Shown one piece after another: positions 9,235-64,000 of a stretch of 64,000 nt of DNA (position 1 is its first letter; the number at the start of each line of letters is the position of its first letter). The notes under the pieces were generated by a model. The model worked only from the letters and a program-made list of their open reading frames with translations, had not been told where the DNA came from and did not search any database. This DNA is from Streptomyces uncialis. Its GTDB lineage: Bacteria > Actinomycetota > Actinomycetes > Streptomycetales > Streptomycetaceae. The position numbers and the translations under genes were made by a program. The DNA lies in NCBI RefSeq assembly GCF_036250755.1, contig NZ_CP109583.1:5541501-5605500 (forward strand), in the 5' to 3' direction.

Positions 9235-11139
9235 ATGGCGGCGTACTGCCCCTATTGCGGAACACCCGGCCCTGATGACGCCCGCTTCTGCATGAGCTGC
9301 GGTCGCGAACGCCCCCCGGTGCCCGGCGCACCGCCCGCCCCGTCCGCGCCACCGGGCCAGGCCCCGCCCACCGGAGCGATACCCGTACCGCCCCCGGCCG
9401 CCCCACCTGAGCCCGCCGCCCCACCAGCACCCACGACCCCGCCCGCACCGTCGTCCCCTCCAGCCCCGAAGTCCCTCACCGCCCCCACGACCGCACCACC
9501 CCCGGCGACCCAGCCCGCCCCGGCCGCCCCTGCCGTCCCGCCCGCTGCTCCGGCCCCGGCCCCGCAGTCACCGCCCGCACCCTCCGGCCCGCCCGCACCG
9601 TCCAGCCCGCCCTCACCCCCAGGCCCGCCCTCACCCCCAGGCCCGCCCTCACCCCCAGGCCCGCCCTCACCCCCCGGCCCGCCCCCGCCCTCCGGTCCGC
9701 CTCCGTCGGGCGGACCGGCGACCGGACAGCACACGTACACCGCCTTCCCGCCCGGCCATGTGCTGCCCCCGCCGCCGCCCCCGCCCTCGAACGGCGCCGC
9801 GTTCCTGCGGCGGGCCCTCTCCGGGGACTGGAGCGGCGCGCTCCGGGCCGCCGTCTGGCCCCTGGTGTTCGTGACGGCCCTCGCCTTCGCCCTCGCCGTC
9901 CCCGGCTACGGACAGGACATGTCCGACGACGACGCGGTGGGCTTCGGCGACCGGTTCCAGATCACCCTCGCCCTCGTCCTCCAGGGGGTGGGCGGGGAGC
10001 TTGAGGCCGAGACCTCCCGGACCGACCGCTCCGACGACATCGGTCCCGGCGAGGACTGGGACAGCGCACAGCCCGGCGAGGACTCGTACGGTTACGAGCC
10101 CACCCTGTCCGAACAGTTGGGCGTGGCCACGAGCTCCATCGAGCTGATCCCGTTCACGGTCACCGCGGGCTGGCTGCTCACGCTCTACGCCGGACTGCGG
10201 CTGCTGCGCAACCGCGACCGGCGGCGGCTCGCGGCCGGCGCGACGGGGGCCGCGGCGCCCGGTACGGGACCGCCAGCCGGTCCCTGGGCCGGTGCCGCGC
10301 CCTGGACCAACGGCGCCACCTCCGGACTTGAGGCGGCCCTGCGGGTCGGGCTGCTCGTCACCGCCGGAGTCCTCGTCCTGGCACTGTTCGCGCAGCCGAC
10401 CATCCAGGGCGTCGAGCTCTCCTCCGGGGTGCCGTTCGCCGTGCTGGGCGCCCTGCTGATGTCGGTCGTCCTGTCCGCCGTCGTGCTCGCCCGCGACGAA
10501 CACACCGGCTGGCTCGCCGCCCGCCCCGGCCTCCAGGCCCTCACCCGGGCCTGCGGCACCGCCCTGCGGGCCATGACGTTCGCCCTCGCCCTCTGCTCGG
10601 TCGTCCTGCTGATCGTCTACACCCAGCTCGACGAGTTCGACGAGGGCGGCTCCCTGTACGGGGAGGACTTCCCCGCCACCCTGACCGTCCTCCTGCTCCT
10701 GCTGAACCTCGGCGTCGCCGGACTCGGACTGTCCTGGGGCGCCCCGGTCGAGGCGGAGTTCAGCTCCCGGCTGCGCCCCGAGGAGGAAGCGCTCGGGCTC
10801 TCCGAGCTGGGGGACCTGGTCGGTTCCTGGGCCGTCGCCGGGACCCTCGCGGTCGGCGCGGTGTCCGTACTGTTCCTCGGAGTGCTCGCCGCGCGGCGCC
10901 ATGAGCGCCGCGCGGAACAACTCCTCGCGGGGGGACTGTTCCTGGGGCTGTTCCTGCTGCTCGCCGGGGTCGGCGGCTACGGGATGACGCAGGGCGGGTC
11001 CTACCGGGGCGGGGAGACGATGCACGTGGGTACGGCGATTCCGGACGCGCTGCTGTTCGGCACGGTGTGGGTGGCGGGTGGGTTGCTGGCGGGCGCCCTG
11101 CTGGTCACCCTGCTGCGCCCCCCTACGGCTCCCCGCTGA
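9235..11139 (+). CDS. Zinc-ribbon, proline-rich, multi-spanning membrane protein
   Basis: ATG 9235 follows GGAG by 9 nt and gives 634 residues. Residues 2-22 are a zinc ribbon, CPYCGTPGPDDARFCMSCGR. Residues of about 25-180 are almost only Pro, Ala, Ser and Gly and include SPPGPP repeats. The remainder has about seven or eight hydrophobic segments in two blocks. Between the first two lies an acidic loop (DMSDDDAVGFGD... and the DDIGPGEDWDSAQPGEDSYGY area) that is probably outside the cell. Streptomyces genomes carry families of such zinc-ribbon/membrane proteins with no known function; I cannot assign one. It is monocistronic and ends just before a large repeat region. Confidence 0.85.
   Translation: MAAYCPYCGTPGPDDARFCMSCGRERPPVPGAPPAPSAPPGQAPPTGAIPVPPPAAPPEPAAPPAPTTPPAPSSPPAPKSLTAPTTAPPPATQPAPAAPAVPPAAPAPAPQSPPAPSGPPAPSSPPSPPGPPSPPGPPSPPGPPSPPGPPPPSGPPPSGGPATGQHTYTAFPPGHVLPPPPPPPSNGAAFLRRALSGDWSGALRAAVWPLVFVTALAFALAVPGYGQDMSDDDAVGFGDRFQITLALVLQGVGGELEAETSRTDRSDDIGPGEDWDSAQPGEDSYGYEPTLSEQLGVATSSIELIPFTVTAGWLLTLYAGLRLLRNRDRRRLAAGATGAAAPGTGPPAGPWAGAAPWTNGATSGLEAALRVGLLVTAGVLVLALFAQPTIQGVELSSGVPFAVLGALLMSVVLSAVVLARDEHTGWLAARPGLQALTRACGTALRAMTFALALCSVVLLIVYTQLDEFDEGGSLYGEDFPATLTVLLLLLNLGVAGLGLSWGAPVEAEFSSRLRPEEEALGLSELGDLVGSWAVAGTLAVGAVSVLFLGVLAARRHERRAEQLLAGGLFLGLFLLLAGVGGYGMTQGGSYRGGETMHVGTAIPDALLFGTVWVAGGLLAGALLVTLLRPPTAPR
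9606..9677. repeat. 18-bp coding tandem repeat, 4 copies
   Basis: Four nearly identical units cccgccctcacccccagg inside the membrane-protein gene encode the PPSPPG periods of its linker. The near-identity at DNA level points to recent slippage or unequal exchange. Confidence 0.85.
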
Positions 11140-11169
11140 CGGTCGCGCCGCGCCTTCGCTCGCCCTTCT

Positions 11170-12230
11170 GAGGTCCGTCCACCTGGACGCACGTGTCCCT
11201 GTGCGGGTACGTCCGGGGGTGCGCGGTTCCTCGCGCCCCTGAGGTTCGTCCGGCTGGGCGTTCTTGTTCCTGTGCGGGCCGTCCGGGGGTGCGCAGTTCC
11301 TCGCGCCCCTGGGGTGCTGTCCTATTACGGTCGCTTTTCGGGTGCGGGCCGTCCTCGTTTTGCGCGGTTCCTCGCGCGCCTGGGGTTCCCCACCTGGGCG
11401 TACCTGTTCCTGTGCGGGTACGGACGGGGGTGCGCAGTTCCCCGCGCCCCTGAGGTTCGTCCGGCTGGGCGTTCTTGTTCCTGCGCGGGCCGTCCGGGGG
11501 TGCGCAGTTCCTCGCGCCCCTGGGGTGCTGTCCTATTACGGTCGCTTTTCGGGTGCGGGCCGTCCTCGTTTTGCGCGGTTCCTCGCGCCCCTGGGGTTCC
11601 CCACCTGGGCGTACCTGTCCCTGTGCGGGTACACCCGGGGGTGCGCGGTTCCTCGCGCCCCTGAGGTTCGTCCGGCTGGGCGTTCTTGTTCCTGTGCGGG
11701 CCGTCCGGGGGTGCGCAGTTCCTCGCGCCCCTGGGTGGTGCCCCCTTGCGGTCGTTCTTCGGGTGCGGGGCTGTCCTCGTTTTGCGCAGTTCCCCGTGCC
11801 CCTTTGGGGCGTCCGCCTGGGGCTGTCCGTCAGGTTGCGGGTGGGGTCAGGCTGCGGGGCGGCGTCAACCGGGGGCGGGGTTCAACCACACTCCTCGTGC
11901 AGTCGCCGGACTCAGCGAAGGGGGTGGGCGGGAATCTCTGCTCGCAGACTCCGATGCTCTTCAGTCGGGTCACTGGACGTGTTACCGAGCGTGTCGGATC
12001 GAGGACGGAGAATCCCGACCGGCACCGACCCGAAGAACAAGCAGAACGCGCCCCAAAGGGGCGCGGGGAACTGCGCACAACCACCGAGCGACGGCACAGG
12101 AAACAAGTTGGCCCACCCGGACAGACCTGGGAAGCGCAAGCGAAGGCGACCCGCAGGGGAACCGCGCACCCCACGAGCGACGGCACAGGAACGAAGTCCG
12201 TCCCGCCGGACGGACCTGGGACCCACCCGG
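11170..12230. repeat. Intergenic mosaic repeat region R1
   Basis: This noncoding region lies between the convergent membrane-protein and PASTA genes. The left side is a tandem array with a 211-bp period (11221, 11432, 11643; the third unit diverges after about 100 bp). Each unit contains gcgcagttcctcgcgcccct-type 20-mers and a tgtccggctgggcgt-type spacer. Then comes a core element (11931-12022), and then the inverse-oriented modules, starting with the exact 20-mer aggggcgcggggaactgcgc at 12057-12076. Open frames across it are repeat artefacts. Confidence 0.85.
11931..12022 (+). repeat. Conserved repeat core, copy A
   Basis: About 92 bp running from ggtgggcgggaatctctg to gagaatcccgacc. Its ends form an imperfect inverted repeat (cgggaatctc / gagaatcccg, 9 of 10). 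It matches copies B (16348), C (41998, inverted) and D (63646), and is the most diverged of the four. Confidence 0.8.
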
Positions 12231-14822: not shown

Positions 14823-15755
14823 TCAGAGCACCCGGACCGCGCCGTCGGCGGGGTAGCCCGACAGGTCCTGGATGACGACGCCCTTCGACGGGTTCGCCGC
14901 GTCCAGGTACTGGCCGTTACCGATGTAGACACCGGTGTGGTACGCGGAGCCCGCGCCACCCCAGTACAGGATGTCGCCGACCTGGAGGTTGGACGTGCCG
15001 ACCTGGGTACCGGCCGTCGACTGCGTCTGCGAGGTGCGCGGGAGGTCGATCCCGGCCTCCTTAAACGCGGCCTGGACGAGGCCCGAGCAGTCCCACGAGT
15101 TCGGGCCCGTGCCGCCCATGACGTACGCGTCGCCGACCTGCGCCTTGAGGAAGGCGATGACGGAGCCGAGGTTGCCGCTCGCCGGCGCGGTGGTGCTCTC
15201 CGAGGAGGAACCCGTGGACGGGGCGCTGGTGCCCGTGGAGTCCGACGTGCCGGTGGACGGCGTGTCCGACTGCGGCGTGGACGTCGACGCGGGCGCGGCG
15301 GCCGTGGTGGTGGTGAGCGGGGCACGCTCGGCGGTACGGGAGGCCCGCTCCGTCTCGGCGCGGCGCTCGGCCTCGGCCTTCGCCGCGCGCTCCGCGGCCT
15401 TCTTCTCGGCCTCGGCCTTGCGGACGGCCTCGGCCCGGTCCTTCTTGGCCTGCCCGGACGCCTTCTTGGCGGCCTGGTCCTGCTCGGCGCGGAGCTGCTC
15501 CTGCTGGGCCTGGAGCTCGTAGGCCGCGGCGGTGAGCTGGGTGGCACTCGCCGAGCGGGCGACCTGGGCCGAGAGGTCGGAGGTGAGCGTGGGCATTTCG
15601 ATGGTCTCGGTCACGGGTGCGGCGGCGCTGGCCGATCCCGAAGCACCGGCCACGGCCAGGGTGCTGAGGACGCCACCGGCGACACCGGCACGCAGCTTGT
15701 TGCTGCCGCTGCGGCGGGGCTTCCGGTGGCTGGGTATGTGAGCGGTGTGGGACAT
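14823..15755 (-). CDS. Secreted NlpC/P60 peptidoglycan endopeptidase
   Basis: This is a 310-residue exported wall hydrolase. It has a signal peptide (about 1-46, ending GSASAAA), a charged Ala/Lys/Glu coiled-coil region (about 70-135: QEQLRAEQDQAAKKA...), a Ser/Thr-rich linker, and a C-terminal NlpC/P60 domain (about 195-310). The catalytic Cys is in WDCSGLVQAAF, the His in AYHTGVYIGN, and the domain ends in QYLDAANPSKGV. The family cuts D-Glu-meso-DAP bonds in stem peptides. The coiled coil may dock on an activator or on the envelope. It diverges from nuoA across a 1.56-kb intergenic region that contains repeat region R2. Confidence 0.95.
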   Translation of the reverse strand: MSHTAHIPSHRKPRRSGSNKLRAGVAGGVLSTLAVAGASGSASAAAPVTETIEMPTLTSDLSAQVARSASATQLTAAAYELQAQQEQLRAEQDQAAKKASGQAKKDRAEAVRKAEAEKKAAERAAKAEAERRAETERASRTAERAPLTTTTAAAPASTSTPQSDTPSTGTSDSTGTSAPSTGSSSESTTAPASGNLGSVIAFLKAQVGDAYVMGGTGPNSWDCSGLVQAAFKEAGIDLPRTSQTQSTAGTQVGTSNLQVGDILYWGGAGSAYHTGVYIGNGQYLDAANPSKGVVIQDLSGYPADGAVRVL

Positions 15756-16084: not shown

Positions 16085-16770
16085 ACCTGACACAGCGTCA
16101 CGCCTTCGCTCGCGCTTTCGAGGTCCCACCACTGGACGTACTTGTCCCCCCACAGGTCGCCAGGTCCGTCCGGCGGGACGTACTCCGTTCCTGTGCCGTC
16201 GCTCGGTGGTTTCGCGCAGTTCCCCGCGCCCCTTAAGTGCTGCCCTCTTGCAGTCGCTCTTCGGGTGCGGGTCTGCCCTCGCCTTGCGCAGTTCCCCGCG
16301 CCCCTGACGGGGCACCCCTCTCCTCGCGCAGTCGCGGTGCTGCGGGAGGGGGTGGGCGGGAATCTCTGCCCGCAGACTCCGATGCTCTTCAGCAGGGCAA
16401 GGGGAGCGTCCGACCGAGCGCGTTGGAGCGAGGACGGAGAATCCCGACCGGCCCCGCCCCGAAGAACAAACAGAACGCGCCCCAAAGGGGCGCGGGGAAC
16501 TGCGCAGAACCACCGAGCGACGGCACAGCAGCGAAGTGCGCCCAGCCGGACGGACCTGGGAAGCGCAAGCGAAGGCGACCCGCGGGGAACTGCGCAGAAC
16601 CACCGAGCGACGGCACAGCAGCGAAGTACGCCCAGCCGGACGGACCTAGGAAGCGCAAGCGAAGGCGACCTGCGGGGAACTGCGCACCCACCGAGCGACG
16701 GCACAGCACCGAAGTACGCCCGCCCGGGCAGACCTCGAAAGCCCAAGCGAAGGCGGATCGTGAAAACGGG
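16085..16770. repeat. Intergenic mosaic repeat region R2
   Basis: Left modules with gcgcagttccccgcgcccct (near 16213 and 16285), a core element, then right modules in inverse orientation. The right modules repeat with a period of about 90 bp (accgagcgacggcacagca...gaagcgcaagcgaaggcgacc...ggggaactgcgc). It sits between the NlpC/P60 gene and the nuo promoter region. Confidence 0.85.
16348..16450 (+). repeat. Conserved repeat core, copy B
   Basis: About 103 bp, nearly identical to copies C and D. It contains the internal hairpin gcggg-aatctctg-cccgc and the invariant cagactccgatgctcttcag. It is enclosed by the outer inverted 20-mers of R2. Confidence 0.85.
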
Positions 16771-17316: not shown

Positions 17317-17676
17317 GTGAACGCTTATGCGCCCATCCTCGTACTGGGAGCCCTCGGGGCAGGCTTTGCGATCTTCTCCGTGGTCATGGCCACGCTTATC
17401 GGTCCAAAGCGTTACAACCGAGCGAAGCTCGAAGCGTATGAATGCGGGATCGAGCCGACACCAACGCCTGCGGGCGGCGGACGGTTCCCGATCAAGTACT
17501 ACCTCACGGCGATGCTCTTCATCATCTTCGATATCGAGATCGTCTTCCTCTACCCCTGGGCCGTCAGTTTCGACGCCCTCGGGTTGTTCGGGCTCGTGGA
17601 GATGCTGCTCTTCGTGCTCACCGTCTTCGTCGCGTACGCGTACGTATGGCGGCGCGGCGGCCTGGAATGGGACTGA
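17317..17676 (+). CDS. nuoA: NADH-quinone oxidoreductase subunit A
   Basis: 119-residue membrane subunit with three helices. It has the NuoA motif [12 protein letters not shown] and the [27 protein letters not shown] stretch around the quinone-chamber entrance, whose acidic FDIE residues are conserved. The GTG start at 17317 follows a GAGGAG ribosome site. It is the first gene of the 14-gene complex I operon. The ORF starts well downstream of the Rex-like site, leaving a leader of up to 200 nt. Confidence 0.97.
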
Positions 17677-17711
17677 AACCCGCGAGGGACAGAAGGGTCT
17701 AGGGGCCACCA

Positions 17712-18266
17712 ATGGGACTCGAAGAGAAGCTGCCGAGCGGTTTTCTGCTGACCACCGTCGAACAGGCCGCGGGCTGGGTGCGCAAGGCGTCCGTCTTTCC
17801 CGCCACCTTCGGCCTCGCGTGCTGCGCGATCGAGATGATGACGACGGGCGCGGGTCGCTACGACCTCGCCCGCTTCGGCATGGAGGTCTTCCGCGGTTCA
17901 CCGCGCCAGGCCGACCTCATGATCGTCGCCGGACGGGTCAGTCAGAAGATGGCGCCGGTACTGCGGCAGGTCTACGACCAGATGCCGAACCCCAAGTGGG
18001 TCATCTCGATGGGCGTCTGCGCGTCCTCGGGCGGCATGTTCAACAACTACGCGATCGTCCAGGGCGTCGACCACGTCGTCCCCGTCGACATCTATCTCCC
18101 CGGCTGCCCGCCGCGGCCCGAGATGCTGTTGGACGCGATCCTCAAGCTCCACCAGAAGATCCAGAGCTCCAAGCTCGGCGTGAACGCCGAGGAAGCGGCC
18201 CGCGAGGCGGAGGAGGCGGCGCTCAAGGCGCTCCCCACCATCGAGATGAAGGGGCTGCTGCGATGA
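17712..18266 (+). CDS. nuoB: NADH-quinone oxidoreductase subunit B (cluster N2)
   Basis: 184 residues. All four ligands of the terminal [4Fe-4S] cluster N2 are visible: Cys37 and Cys38 (GLACCAIEM), Cys103 (GVCASSGG) and Cys132 (PGCPPRPE). N2 passes electrons to menaquinone. The C-terminus has an alanine/glutamate-rich helix not needed for the core fold. It overlaps nuoC by ATGA. Confidence 0.98.
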
Positions 18267-18997
18267 GCGAGGGCAATGGCGTGAACCCCGACCGGGACCT
18301 CAACGAACAGAACCTGCCGGGGCAGCGCGGCGACCACGGCGAGGAGATCCGCGTCCAGCGCGGCATGTTCGGCGCCTCGGGCGGCGGTGACACCTCCGGC
18401 TTCGGCGGGCTGGTGCGCTCCGTGCGGCTGCCGGGCGCGGCGGTCCGCCCGTACGGCGGCTGGTTCGACGAGGTCGCCGACGAGCTGGAAGGGGCCCTGG
18501 AGGAACAGGGTCTCGTCCCGGAGAACGCGATCGAGAAGACCGTGGTCGACCGGGACGAACTGACCTTCCACGTCGAACGCGGCTACCTGGTGCGCGTCGC
18601 GCAGACCCTGCGCGACGACCCGGCGCTCCGCTTCGAACTGTGCACCGGGGTCAGCGGGGTGCACTACCCCAGCGACAAGGGCCGTGAGCTGCACGCCGTC
18701 TACCACCTGCGGTCGATCACCCACAACCGGCTGATCCGGGTGGAGGTCTGTGCCCCTGACAGCGACCCGCACATCCCCTCGCTGGTGCGGGTCTACCCGA
18801 CCAACGACTGGCACGAGCGTGAGACGTACGACTTCTTCGGGATCGTCTTCGACGGCCATCCCGCGCTCACCCGGATCATGATGCCGGACGACTGGCAGGG
18901 CTTCCCGCAGCGCAAGGACTACCCCCTGGGCGGTATCCCCGTCGAGTACAAGGGCGCCCAGATCCCGGCTCCCGACCAGCGGAGGTCGTACTCCTGA
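18263..18997 (+). CDS. nuoC: NADH-quinone oxidoreductase subunit C
   Basis: 244 residues from ATG 18263, which overlaps the nuoB stop. After a hydrophilic extension of about 75 residues (Gly/Asp-rich, absent from many bacterial NuoC), the 30-kDa subunit domain follows, with [36 protein letters not shown] and the signature [40 protein letters not shown]. It belongs to the peripheral arm that connects to NuoB and NuoD. It is a separate gene here, not fused to nuoD. Confidence 0.97.
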
Positions 18998-30162: not shown

Positions 30163-31734
30163 ATGTCCTTTCCCCTGCTCACCGTGACGGCGGCGCTCCC
30201 GGCGATCGGCGCGATCGCCACCGCCGCCGTCCCCGCCGCACGGCGCACCGCGGCCAAATGGCTCGCGCTGCTGTTCTCCCTCGCCACCCTGGTCCTCGCC
30301 GCGATCGTCATGATCCGCTTCGAGCCGGGCGGCGACCGCTACCAGCTCACCGAGTCGCACTCCTGGATCAGCGACTTCGGGGTGCGCTACGAACTCGGCG
30401 TCGACGGCATCGCCGTCGTCCTCATCGGGCTCACCGCGCTGCTGATCCCGTTCATCATCCTGGCCGGCTGGCACGACGCCGACCCGCTGGAGGACAGCAA
30501 CTCCCGCTGGCGGCCCACCCAGGGCTTCTTCGCCCTGATCCTCTCCGTCGAGGCGATGGTGATCCTCTCCTTCGAGGCCACCGACATCTTCCTCTTCTAC
30601 ATCTTCTTCGAAGCCATGCTGATCCCGATGTACTTCCTCATCGGCGGCTTCGGGGACCGTGCCCACGAGGGCGGCGACAAGGCGGCGGCGACCCAGCGGT
30701 CGTACGCCGCCGTGAAGTTCCTGCTCTACAACCTCGCGGGCGGGCTCATCATGCTCGCCGCCGTCATCGGGCTCTACGTCGTCGCCGGGAGCTTCTCGCT
30801 CCAGGAGATCACCGCCGCCCGTGCCAGCGGTTCGCTGGAGATGGCGACCAACACCGAACGGCTGCTGTTCCTCGGCTTCTTCTTCGCGTTCGCGGTGAAG
30901 GCGCCGCTGTGGCCGCTGCACACCTGGCTGCCCAACGCGATGGGCGAGGCCACCGCACCGGTCGCCGTGCTCATCACCGCCGTCGTCGACAAGGTCGGCA
31001 CGTTCGCGATGCTCCGCTTCTGCCTGGGGCTCTTCCCCGAGGCGTCGAAGTGGGCCACCCCGGTCGTGCTGGTCCTCGCCCTGGTCAGCATCGTCTACGG
31101 GGCGCTGCTCGCCGTCGGCCAGCGCGACATGAAGCGCCTGGTCGCCTACGCGTCGATCTCGCACTTCGGGTTCATCGTCCTCGGCATCTTCGCGATGACG
31201 TCGCAGGGCCAGAGCGGCGCCACGCTCTACATGGTCAACCACGGCATCTCCACGGCCGCCCTGATGCTCGTCGCCGGATTCCTGATCTCCCGGCGCGGCT
31301 CGCGGCTCATCGCCGACTACGGAGGAGTCCAGAAGGTCGCCCCGGTACTCGCCGGGACGTTCCTGATCGGCGGACTGGCGACCCTCTCACTGCCGGGCCT
31401 CGCGCCCTTCGTCAGTGAGTTCCTGGTCCTGGTCGGCACCTTCGCGCGGTACCCGGTCGCCGGGATCATCGCGACCCTCGGCATCGTCCTGGCCGCGCTG
31501 TACGTCCTCGTCCTCTACCAGCGGACGATGACCGGCCCCGTGAAACCCGAGGTCTCCACCATGCCCGACCTGCGGGTCCGGGAGCTCGCGGTGGTGGCCC
31601 CGCTGATCGCGCTGCTCATCTTCCTGGGCGTCTTCCCGAAGCCGCTCACGGACATCGTCAACCCGGCGGTCCAGCACACCATGTCCGACGTCCAGCAGAA
31701 GGACCCCAAGCCCGAGGTGGAGGCGGCCAAGTGA
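30163..31734 (+). CDS. nuoM: NADH-quinone oxidoreductase subunit M (antiporter-like)
   Basis: 523 residues, starting 5 bp after nuoL. Second antiporter-like pump: LGVDGIAVVLIGLTALLIPF, FFEAMLIPMYFLIGGFG, the key Lys/His region FAVKAPLWPLHTWLPNAMGEATAPVAVLI and ISHFGFIVLGIFAMTSQG. The end overlaps nuoN by GTGA. Confidence 0.98.
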   Translation: MSFPLLTVTAALPAIGAIATAAVPAARRTAAKWLALLFSLATLVLAAIVMIRFEPGGDRYQLTESHSWISDFGVRYELGVDGIAVVLIGLTALLIPFIILAGWHDADPLEDSNSRWRPTQGFFALILSVEAMVILSFEATDIFLFYIFFEAMLIPMYFLIGGFGDRAHEGGDKAAATQRSYAAVKFLLYNLAGGLIMLAAVIGLYVVAGSFSLQEITAARASGSLEMATNTERLLFLGFFFAFAVKAPLWPLHTWLPNAMGEATAPVAVLITAVVDKVGTFAMLRFCLGLFPEASKWATPVVLVLALVSIVYGALLAVGQRDMKRLVAYASISHFGFIVLGIFAMTSQGQSGATLYMVNHGISTAALMLVAGFLISRRGSRLIADYGGVQKVAPVLAGTFLIGGLATLSLPGLAPFVSEFLVLVGTFARYPVAGIIATLGIVLAALYVLVLYQRTMTGPVKPEVSTMPDLRVRELAVVAPLIALLIFLGVFPKPLTDIVNPAVQHTMSDVQQKDPKPEVEAAK

Positions 31735-33380
31735 ACGCATCAGCCGTCCACAGCCTGTGGACAACGGCGGCCGAACCCGTCACCAAGATCGACACCCCCA
31801 AGATCGAGTACGGGCAGCTCTCGCCCATCCTGATCATCATCGCCGCCGCGGTGCTCGGCATCCTCATCGAGGCCGTCGTCCCGCGCAAAGCGCGCTACCA
31901 CACCCAGCTCTTCACCGCCGTGGTGGCGCTGACCGCGGCGTTCGCCGCGGTCGTCGCCCTCGCGGCGAGCGGCTACGGCACCACCAAGGCGGGCATCGTC
32001 GCGATGGGCGCCGTCGCCGTCGACGGACCCGCCCTGTTCCTCCAGGGCACCATCCTGCTGACCGGCCTGGTCGCGATCTTCACCTTCGCCGAACGCCGCC
32101 TCGACCCCGCCACACACGGCAACCAGGTCGACTCGTTCGCCGCGCAGGCCGCGTCCGTACCCGGCAGCGACAGCGAGAAGGCCGCGGTCAAGGCCGGATT
32201 CACCACCACCGAGGTGTTCCCGCTCGCGCTGTTCGCCATCGGCGGCATGCTCGTCTTCCCCGCCGCGAACGACCTCCTGACGCTGTTCATCGCCCTGGAG
32301 GTCTTCTCCCTGCCGCTGTACCTGCTCTGCGCGCTCGCCCGGCGCAAGCGGCTCATGTCGCAGGAAGCGGCCGTCAAGTACTTCCTGCTCGGCGCCTTCG
32401 CCTCCGCGTTCACCCTCTTCGGCATCGCCCTGCTCTACGGCTACGCGGGCTCCGTGTCGTACGCGAGGATCGCCGAGGTCGTCGACGGCACCGTCGGGAA
32501 GATCACCCCGGCCCTCGCCGGGACCATGGGCAACGACGCGCTGCTGCTCGTCGGCGCCGCCCTCATCGTGATGGGCCTGCTCTTCAAGGTCGGCGCGGTG
32601 CCGTTCCATATGTGGACCCCGGACGTCTACCAGGGCGCGCCCACCCCCGTCACCGGCTTCATGGCGGCGGCCACCAAGGTCGCGGCCTTCGGCGCGCTGC
32701 TGCGGCTGCTGTACGTGGTGCTCCCGGGGCTGCGCTGGGACTGGCGGCCCGTGATGTACGCCGTCGCCATCCTCACGATGCTCGGCGGGGCGATCGTCGC
32801 GATCACCCAGACCGACATCAAGCGGCTGCTCGCGTACTCGTCGATCGCGCACGCGGGGTTCATCCTCGCGGGTGTCATCGCCGCGACGCCCGAGGGCGTG
32901 TCCTCGGTGCTGTTCTACCTCGGGGCGTACTCCTTCGTGACGATCGGCGCGTTCGCCGTGGTCACGCTGGTACGGGACGCCGGCGGCGAGGCCACGCACC
33001 TGTCGAAGTGGGCGGGGCTGGGGCGGCGGTCGCCGCTGGTCGCGGCGGTCTTCGCGGTGTTCCTGCTGGCCTTCGCCGGGATTCCGCTGACCTCCGGGTT
33101 CTCGGGGAAGTTCGCCGTGTTCAAGGCGGCGGCGGAGGGCGGTGCCGGGGCGCTGGTCGTCGTCGGTGTCGTGTCCTCGGCCGTCGCGGCGTTCTTCTAT
33201 GTCCGGGTGATCGTGCTGATGTTCTTCAGCGAGCCGAACCCGGAGGGGCCGACCGTCGCGGTGCCGTCCGCGCTGACGTACGCGGCGATCGGGACGGGGG
33301 TCGTGGTCACGCTGGTGCTCGGTGTCGCGCCCCAGTACTTCCTCGACCTCGCCAGTCAGGCGGGAGTGTTCGTGCGCTGA
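31731..33380 (+). CDS. nuoN: NADH-quinone oxidoreductase subunit N (antiporter-like)
   Basis: 549 residues, last gene of the operon, start GTG 31731. Third antiporter-like subunit: [85 protein letters not shown] and [25 protein letters not shown] repeat region and a terminator-like hairpin follow. Confidence 0.98.
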
Positions 33381-33454: not shown

Positions 33455-33715
33455 TCGCGTTTCGCCTTCGCTTGCGCCCCGGGTTGCCTGTGCTGGGCGT
33501 ACTTGTTCCCGTGCGGGTCGCCTTCGCTTGCGCTTTCTGGGTCTGTCCGGGTGGGCGTACTTGTTCCCTGTGCCGTCGCTCGTGGGGTGCGCAGTTCCCC
33601 GCGCCCCTGGATGCTGCCCCGGTCCGTTGTTCGTCGGGTGCGGGCCGGTCCTCGTCTTTGCGCAGTTCCCCGCGCCCCTTTGGGGGCGCCCCTTGCGGTG
33701 GTCGTTCGGGGGCGC
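33455..33715. repeat. Intergenic mosaic repeat region R3 (no core)
   Basis: Contains only left-type modules: two exact gcgcagttccccgcgcccct 20-mers (33588 and 33660 area) and the cgccttcgcttgcg / tgtccgggtgggcgtacttg spacers. The conserved core and the inverse modules are missing, so this looks like a half-element. Confidence 0.8.
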
Positions 33716-41699: not shown

Positions 41700-42835
41700 C
41701 CTTCGCGGGTCGCCTTCGCTTGCGCTTCCCAGGTCCGTCCGGGTGGACGAACTTCGTTGCTGTGCCGTCGCTCGTCGTTTTCGCGCAGTTCCCCGCAGGT
41801 CGCCTTCGCTCGCGCCTCCCAGGTCTGTCCGGGTGGGCGCACTTCGTTCGTGTGCCGTCGCTCGGTGGGTGCGCAGTTCCCCGCGCCCCTGGATGCTGCC
41901 TCCTGCTGTCGCTCGTCGGGTGCGGGCCGGTTCTCGTCTTCGCGCAGTTCCCCGCGCCCCTTTGGGGCGCGTTCTGTCGGTCCTTCGGGTCGGGGCCGGT
42001 CGGGATTCTCCGTCCTCGATCCAACGCGCTCGGTCGGACGTTCCCCTTGCCGTGCTGAAGAGCATCGGAGTCTGCGGGCAGAGATTCCCGCCCACCCCCT
42101 CCCGTAGCAACGCGACTGCGCGAGGAGAGGGGTGCCCCGTCAGGGGCGCGGGGAACTGCGCAACAACGAGGGCCGACCCGCACCCGAAGAGCGACCGTGA
42201 TGGGGCAGCACCTCAGGGGCGCGGGGAACTGCGCGAGCAACCTCGGGCGATCCGCAGCCGAACGGGAACCGTAAGGGGCGCGACCTGAGGGGCGCGGGGA
42301 ACTGCGCACCCCACGAGCGACGGCACCGGGAACAGGTACGCCCAGCCGGACAGACCTGGGAAGCGCGAGCGAAGGGCGACCTGCGGGGAACTGCGCGAGC
42401 AACCTCGGGCGATCCGCAGCCGAACGGGAACCGTAAGGGGCGCGACCTGAGGGGCGCGGGGAACTGCGCACCCCACGAGCGACGGCGCAGGGGCAAGTAC
42501 GTCCAGCACCGGAAACCTCGGGGGCGCGAGCGAAGGCGACCTGCGGGGAACTGCGCGAGAACGAGGGCGACCCGCACTCGAAGAAGCGACCGCAAGAGGG
42601 CAGCACGTAAGGGGCGCGGGGAACTGCGCACCCACCGAGCGACGGCACCGCGAACAAGTGCGCCCACCCGGACAGACCTGGGAAGCGCGAGCGAAGGGCG
42701 ACCTGCGGGGAACTGCGCACCCCACGAGCGACGGCACAGGGAACAAGTACGTCCAGCCGGACAGACCTGGGAAGCGCGAGCGAAGGCGACCCGCGGGGAA
42801 CTGCGCACCCACCGAGCGACGGCGCGGGGAACCGG
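41700..42835. repeat. Intergenic mosaic repeat region R4
   Basis: The largest mosaic (about 1.1 kb), between two genes of the same direction. Left modules occur twice, then core copy C (inverted relative to A, B and D), then six or seven inverse modules, each ending in aggggcgcggggaactgcgc or a short form. A block of about 160 bp (cgagcaacctcgggcgatccgcagccgaacgggaaccgtaagg...) is duplicated exactly near 42235 and 42395. Open frames in it are artefacts. Confidence 0.85.
41998..42100 (-). repeat. Conserved repeat core, copy C (inverted)
   Basis: Same element of about 103 bp as at 16348 and 63646 but on the minus strand, starting with the complement of ggtgggcgggaatctctgcccgc. It is enclosed by outer inverted 20-mers. 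Confidence 0.85.
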
Positions 42836-49339: not shown

Positions 49340-49569
49340 CCGGTGGCGGACCGTCCCTCCTGGACCCGAGGTCCCGCCAGGGGGCCGACCGCCCTGATGG
49401 ACGGCCGGCCCCCGGCCGGGACGGCGGGGCGCCGCGTGTTCGCACGGCGCACCCCCGTCCACGTGGCCTGCGCCGCGGGCCGGGGGGCGGAGCCCTGCCC
49501 GGTCGGCGGGCCCGTGCCACGGGACCCGATGACGCCCTGACGCCCGACAGCCGGTGCCCGGCACCTGAC

Positions 49570-49604
49570 GTCCGACGTCCGACGTCCGACGTCCGACGTC
49601 CGAC
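49570..49604. repeat. 7-bp tandem repeat, 5 copies
   Basis: Five perfect gtccgac units in a row, just downstream of the aminopeptidase stop codon. This is a simple-sequence tract that can change length by slippage. Confidence 0.9.
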
Positions 49605-63334: not shown

Positions 63335-64000
63335 CCGCCCTCGCGTCGCCTTCGCTCCCGCTCCCGCTCCCCAGGTTCGTCCGGCTGGGCGTACTTGTCC
63401 CTGTGCGGGTCGCTCGTGGGGTGCGCAGTTCCCCGCGGGTCGCCTTCGCTTGCGCTTCCCAGGTCTGTCCGGCTGGGCGTACTTGTTTCCTGTGCGGGTC
63501 GCTCGTGGGGTGCGCAGTTCCCCGCGCCCCTGGGTGCTGCCCCTTGCGGTCGTTCGCCGGGTGCGGGGCCGTCCTCGTCTTTGCGTAGTTCCCCGCGCCC
63601 CTGACGGGGCACCCCCTTCCCTCCCGCAGTCGCGCTGCTGCGGGAGGGGGTGGGCGGGAATCTCTGCCCGCAGACTCCGATGCTCTTCAGTCGGGCAAGG
63701 GGAATGTCCGACCGAGCGCGTTGGAGCGAGGACGGAGAATCCCGACCGGCACCGACCCGAAGAACAAGCAGATGGCGCCCCGATAGGGGCGCGGGGAACT
63801 GCGCGAAACCCACGAGCGACGGCACAGGAACGAAGTGCGTCCCGCCGGACGGACCTGGGAAGCGCAAGCGAAGGCGACCCGCGGGGAATTGCGCGAACCC
63901 ACCGAGCGACGGCACAGGAAACAGGTGCGCCCCCAGGTACGAACCCGGGGGCGCGAGCAAAGGCGACCTGCGACGTGCGACTTACGAAGGCCACCTGCCA
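63335..64000. repeat. Intergenic mosaic repeat region R5 (runs to window end)
   Basis: Left modules (with gcgcagttccccgcgcccct near 63511), core copy D, then inverse modules with aggggcgcggggaactgcgc near 63785, continuing past the window edge. The 110 bp between the rarD start and this region hold the rarD promoter area only. Confidence 0.85.
63646..63748 (+). repeat. Conserved repeat core, copy D
   Basis: About 103 bp, nearly identical to copy B over its full length, including the gcggg-aatctctg-cccgc hairpin and the invariant cagactccgatgctcttcag. Confidence 0.85.

Follow-up and report, generated by a model that had tools for sequence, protein, structure and literature searches.

Layout of the repeat regions

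Five intergenic regions of a 64,000-nucleotide stretch of the Streptomyces uncialis chromosome (the window) are built from the same modules, which raises the questions of what kind of element they form, how it spread and how it changes. A preliminary description had seen in them a near-symmetric mosaic family, either a non-autonomous mobile or recombinogenic element or a chromosome-organising repeat. The 20-mer on which it was based, GCGCAGTTCCCCGCGCCCCT, matched the window 25 times at up to three mismatches, against 0.04 matches expected, and all 25 lay within the five regions (R1 to R5), in agreement with the shared modules and the dozen or more copies originally reported. Below, '<' denotes the motif reading GCGCAGTTCCCCGC and '>' its reverse complement.

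R1, R2, R4 and R5 followed a common plan, with '<' motifs on the left, a core of ~176 bp and '>' motifs on the right, as the preliminary description had held for the 20-mer and its complement. The arms of these full elements were tandem arrays of ~70 and 89 bp units with the core in the middle. R1 (11151..12221, outer limits drawn by eye from the repeated modules in the sequence) had a plus-strand left arm at 11221..11803, where motif matches and tandem repeats gave nine '<' units spaced ~70 bp apart and arranged as three 211-bp repeats; its core occupied 11886..12061 and its minus-strand right arm, one '>' motif followed by further modules (motif matches, repeats), 12057..12221. R2 (16101..16760, by repeat comparison) carried two '<' units on the plus strand by motif matches (16214..16305), a core at 16315..16490 (16306-16490 served as search query) and a minus-strand right arm of three ~90-bp units at 16486..16755 (motif matches, repeats). 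R5 (63347..63975, by repeat comparison) had its core at 63613..63788. These three cores lay on the plus strand and belonged to one repeat family (D8). The core of R4 (41704..42832, by repeat comparison) was reversed relative to them, on the minus strand at 41957..42132 (inverted repeat pair I2), and was followed on the minus strand by a right arm of nine '>' units at 42142..42832 (motif matches, repeats), the upstream side of the core. R3 (33462..33690, plus strand; motif matches, repeats) consisted of left-arm modules only, with two exact '<' copies at 33589 and 33660 and no core, and is the half element it had been taken for.

All five regions lay in gaps between the genes called by a simple gene caller, in each of the contexts previously named: a convergent gap for R1, a divergent gap for R2 (nearest called genes 599 and 631 bp away), codirectional plus-strand gaps for R3 and R4, and a codirectional minus-strand gap for R5. 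Between R2 and R3, proteins with complex I domains (PF00329 at 17327-18997, PF00361 at 31731-33380) suggested a nuo operon. R3 directly followed the latter gene and preceded a RecQ-like helicase.

Abundance and taxonomic range

The count of five copies was correct for the window but under-described the family, both in its tandem arms and in its scale. The 19-mer GGGGCGCGGGGAACTGCGC, part of the 20-mer, occurred in 1,156 exact copies in the genome, balanced between the strands (572 and 584), and its reversed control in none. Among the 295 Streptomyces genomes sampled this count ranked first, followed by 748 in another species (G083). Roughly 1,150 motif copies are a large share of the intergenic DNA of this chromosome. 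The copies were also collected across the genus, as the preliminary description had proposed: the 19-mer was present at least once in 174 of the 295 genomes and absent from 121, and none of 24 genomes outside Streptomyces contained it.

The core was far narrower in range. A 29-nt core pattern (up to three mismatches) had 210 copies in this genome and none in the 294 other sampled Streptomyces genomes. In an exact core scan of 84,980 species genomes, every one of the 99 stretches returned came from S. uncialis DCA2648. BLAST against 60 relatives yielded five partial matches and no others, each in a different genome, short (27-50 bp) and with E values from 6e-5 to 9e-4; these were taken as chance similarity. 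DCA2648 itself contained 1,162 copies of the 19-mer and 212 cores, and its long BLAST blocks were mostly 95-99.8% identical to this genome, with one at 75%.

The 19-mer was found in 13 of 20 sampled 20-kb stretches between 2.86 and 7.25 Mb vs. 1 of 20 outside, with these limits set after viewing the data from 40 stretches. Such a zone, together with two near-invariant inverted blocks within the core, would suit sites that organise the chromosome through the binding of a nucleoid or recombination protein. From the sequence, we regard that function as very improbable: many species have zero copies, copies are present in the chromosome arms too, and core orientation is balanced (109 vs. 101), for which a strand bias of the core was also dismissed.

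Construction of the elements

Successive motifs pointing in the same direction (less than 200 bp apart, in 464 kb of this chromosome) were spaced at 68-77 bp in 90 of 134 cases and at 86-92 bp in 33. No unit pointing the wrong way was found within ~500 bp of the core at 74 distinct cores here and 95 in DCA2648, these being the cores (of 210 and 212) with enough flank at hand once identical ones were merged. The motif counts, the empty reversed control and the lack of wrong-way units bear out the earlier view of one near-symmetric family rather than drift. The arm upstream of the core was longer both here (3.49 vs. 1.80 units; 54 vs. 12 loci with 8 ties, p 1e-6) and in DCA2648 (3.61 vs. 1.82 units; 61 vs. 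15 with 19 ties, p 7e-9).

From innermost '<' to innermost '>', the predicted fold was far stronger than that of shuffled sequence for every one of the 31 elements folded (z -7.4 on average and -4.1 at the weakest; stretches under 400 bp, 30 shuffles each). The core comprised a variable loop between the two near-invariant blocks, which by eye are imperfect inverted copies of each other. For 26 cores, alifold energy fell below that of column shuffles (z -3.7 on the plus strand, -2.1 on the minus), and no base pair showed a two-sided change; a structured RNA was thus set aside, and the palindrome alone is supported. Rfam covariance models run over R1 and R2 (11-17 kb) matched neither element and gave one sub-threshold hit, outside them at 15528.

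Arms of the same kind surrounded other centres elsewhere in the genus. In 400 kb of G083, 49 motifs formed 22 clusters (adjacent pairs '<<' 8, '>>' 8, '<>' 10, '><' 1) with same-direction spacing of 57-60 bp in 11 of 16 cases, and several clusters had a palindromic centre unlike the S. uncialis core. At up to three mismatches this centre occurred 146 times in G083 and 18 times in G127; G185 and G313 had a single copy apiece, and the remaining 291 genomes, that of S. uncialis included, had none. The motif thus recurs as an arm over much of the genus, and each of the two centres studied is specific to its lineage. In 9 of 12 high-copy genomes searched, two motif arms and a short loop formed a bare hairpin, often in the company of other palindromic modules (16 of the 18 loci displayed). 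At loci of other Streptomyces (L229-L246), the bare hairpin often lay between modules such as CTCGCCCCCGCCGCCCCTACCCGTCCC and GGGGCTGCGCCCC on one side and their reverse complements on the other. Judged by eye, other species seem to have nested mosaics of their own.

Differences between two strains

The elements were compared with those of DCA2648, a near-identical strain. In 464 kb we counted 43 motif clusters, of which 34 were comparable after setting aside three outside the aligned stretch, one without anchors and five lone motifs. Arm motifs were present at the matching place in DCA2648 at all 34 loci, and no comparable locus had been gained or lost. Two DCA2648 clusters were unmatched, a lone motif and one '<core>' element that is probably the partner of the anchorless cluster.

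Although shared, the loci differed in architecture at 31 of 34. By at least 20 bp, 16 were longer here and 13 longer in DCA2648, with many of the small differences amounting to one or two units; arm motif totals over the shared loci were 188 and 186. Among well-anchored gaps of 100-1,500 bp, 27 of 33 with an element changed in length by at least 20 bp vs. 19 of 152 without one, and 24 of 33 vs. 9 of 152 by at least 60 bp. Gaps with an element were longer (median 742 bp vs. 278 bp), and among element-free gaps of at least 300 bp, 11 of 71 changed by at least 20 bp. One of the 27 changed element gaps (2,370 bp) reflected an extra gene beside a lone motif. No core was flipped between the strains; at two loci, stretches of 112 bp and 69 bp within the core differed.

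Cores differed as well. At 26 loci both strains had a core, in the same direction. Identity between orthologous cores there averaged 93.1% (82.1-100%) vs. 86.9% for paralogous cores, within element flanks that were 99.5% identical (52 best pieces). The orthologue was the best core match, or jointly so, at 16 of 26 loci. At eight of 26, the DCA2648 core was closer by at least three points to a different locus here (e.g., 98.0% vs. 86.7%), and in the reverse direction seven of 26 cores here were closer to a different DCA2648 locus. Diagnostic core alleles differed at five of 26 loci for the left site and at seven of 26 for the right block, of which two could not be read in DCA2648. Non-orthologous cores fit ectopic conversion. 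The 31 altered loci and the eight cores closer to another locus agree with the recombinogenic character first proposed, with the caveat of draft-assembly error.

Unit turnover and core replacement are here differences between two assemblies, and the main caveat is that some of the swapped cores and differing unit numbers may stem from misassembly, since DCA2648 is a multi-scaffold draft and the loci are repeat-rich. That the strain differences as a whole are artefacts is nonetheless hardly credible: they run both ways, the motif totals are nearly equal with no sign of collapse, many are small steps of one or two units, and the unique flanks are almost identical.

Putative gain of R4 and gene context

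One site, that of R4, was compared with relatives. R4 adjoins a gene with a polyprenyl synthetase domain, beyond which lies a gene with a CHRD domain. In the 29 most similar of 294 genomes (86-87% identity at the R4-adjacent gene), no arm motif occurred within 700 bp downstream of that gene. The CHRD gene began 141-295 bp after the stop codon in 13 relatives and 837-888 bp after it in three, compared with ~1.33 kb here, and was not found within reach in the other 13. Given the motif-free site and these distances, R4 is a putative gain in the S. uncialis lineage, at one locus and with a junction unreadable at this level of identity.

Gene context was taken from a simple caller based on codon usage, which placed 382 genes over 75% of 464 kb. 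Of the 238 gaps that reached 100 bp, 38 held elements with at least two motifs. Convergent gaps were over-represented among these 38 (15 of 38 vs. 25 of 200 other gaps, p 0.0002) and divergent gaps under-represented (2 of 38 vs. 58 of 200, p 0.001). In codirectional gaps, the element lay nearer the 3' end of a gene in 19 of 21 cases, at a median of 102 bp vs. 215 bp to the 5' end.

Hairpins without U-tracts are able to terminate transcription in Streptomyces. The host could have selected the elements as bidirectional terminators or as stabilisers of 3' ends, with local expansion of the arms and a mobility limited to recombination. The 3'-end preference, the convergent enrichment and the bare perfect hairpins of the high-copy species are what such a role would produce. 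We nevertheless consider it quite improbable as the explanation of the family: the 19-mer is missing from 121 genomes and from the R4 site in relatives and is therefore dispensable, arms of as many as nine units go beyond the needs of termination, and 210 similar cores are left unaccounted for.

Search for a copying agent

Matches to PF01797 (Y1 transposase of RAYT/IS200 type) were absent from both S. uncialis genomes and from G083, the three genomes with most motif copies. Present RAYT-driven spread is thus unsupported in S. uncialis. Besides the two S. uncialis genomes, Y1 genes were present in 8 of 14 high-copy genomes vs. 1 of 14 zero-copy genomes (p 0.013), a comparison uncorrected for genome size and kinship and with G083 among the six high-copy genomes that had none. 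All four Y1 genes that were typed were of IS200 type and fell short of the cut-off of the RAYT model, on which three of them scored. No arm motif lay within ~1.5 kb of 11 of 12 Y1 loci, and one had a weak hit.

Other carriers were sought. blastn of window positions 16160-16700 found no match in 72,556 plasmid and 50,697 phage records, a search from which records closely related to the window's genome may be missing. The elements examined contained no open frame for a transposase. A candidate autonomous copy came from the C1:5707129 region, where DCA2648 alone has ~2.4 kb of additional sequence next to a lone motif; this sequence proved to be mostly one long ORF of an ordinary gene type.

Two readings that invoke a transposase can be weighed against these results. 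Relic REPINs, spread by a RAYT since lost, would account for the inverted doublets, hairpins and extragenic sites; RAYT-less E. coli genomes keep REPINs, as reported in an extract from PMC8049555, and the excess of Y1 genes in high-copy genomes points the same way. With no PF01797 match in the three top-copy genomes, IS200-type genes elsewhere and hardly any motif near them, we find this origin distinctly unlikely. In the other reading, a transposase of another family is still copying elements or cores, perhaps into existing copies, in the manner of an active MITE. A lineage-specific core in 210 copies, the putative R4 gain and the core replacement between strains would be expected of it. It is nonetheless unlikely, as all 34 comparable loci are shared with none gained or lost, the elements examined held no transposase ORF and the plasmid and phage records gave no match. 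The non-autonomous mobility first proposed consequently stands in part: the lineage-specific core and the motif-free R4 site speak for it, and the shared loci and missing PF01797 partner against it.

Proposed origin and comparison with known families

The reading that we hold to be somewhat probable is that of a REPIN/BIME-like family of composite palindromes without a RAYT, which was spread earlier by another agent and now evolves by unit gain and loss and ectopic conversion. We infer that an earlier chromosome-wide spread took place through a copying agent other than a present-day Y1 (RAYT/IS200) transposase. Since then, slippage or unequal exchange between tandem units would be the main mode of change, accompanied by ectopic gene conversion between dispersed copies. 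Elements may have been retained at gene 3' ends where hairpins are tolerated, and the hairpins might, as a conjecture, add a terminator or mRNA 3'-end function. Several observations sit uneasily with this proposal. No copying step was seen between the strains, Y1 genes are commoner in high-copy species, two of the 38 elements lie in divergent gaps, and the polar arm length falls outside the explanation.

The polarity is addressed by a different possibility, to which we give a small but real chance: in a self-propagating system independent of RAYT, the genus-wide arms would be landing sites and lineage-specific cores would copy themselves into elements already in place, so that a core would sweep a genome by homing-like replacement and not by fresh insertion, and directional copying starting at the core could lengthen the upstream arm.

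The REPIN/BIME-like reading draws on families known from other bacteria. REPINs are described in a portion of PMC3116915 as extragenic, high-copy, hairpin-forming inverted doublets, with lone copies as probable remnants and with tandem clusters. The Streptomyces elements are likewise extragenic, high in copy number, inverted and predicted to form hairpins, and they too include lone copies and tandem clusters. They differ in that REPINs are accompanied by a RAYT, whereas S. uncialis has no Y1/RAYT gene, in their multi-unit tandem arms, and in their conserved ~176-bp centre, replaced by another in another species. BIMEs, in the parts of PMC2817692 and PMC1525189 used here, are intergenic mosaics of palindromic modules with a convergent preference and a length that varies among strains, and mosaic construction, the favouring of convergent gaps, gene-end siting and strain-to-strain length change are features the present elements share. 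BIME units alternate in direction (same part of PMC2817692), whereas those of the Streptomyces arms point one way with a single turn at the core.

Pneumococcal BOX elements, according to sections of PMC3049150, are modular intergenic repeats with predicted stem-loops and a module number that varies among strains, all of which is matched here. In those sections, the inner module of BOX varies between fixed ends, whereas here the outer arrays vary around a fixed and polar core. In layout, the elements do not follow the boxA-(boxB)n-boxC order, the variable units lying outside the core in both arms. MITEs resemble the elements in being non-coding and high in copy number with inverted ends; the Streptomyces elements differ in their proposed growth by tandem units and conversion, and no Y1 (PF01797) partner was found for them. 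No description of such a Streptomyces family or of the exact motif was found among open-licence papers.

If this reading is true, families of REP-like palindromes are able to expand and remain homogeneous in the absence of the transposase held to maintain them, and a pair of near-identical strains offers a direct means of measuring how units turn over and how often ectopic conversion occurs. The arrays could also provide hypervariable markers for telling strains apart, and could complicate Streptomyces genome assembly.

Other repeats in the window

Two simple tandem repeats were also observed. An 18-bp repeat of 7.3 copies at 9571-9701, which lies close to or inside the gene called at 9760-11139 or its longer frame, is unrelated to the palindromes. 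A perfect 7-bp repeat, GACGTCC, was present in 5.4 copies at 49567-49604.
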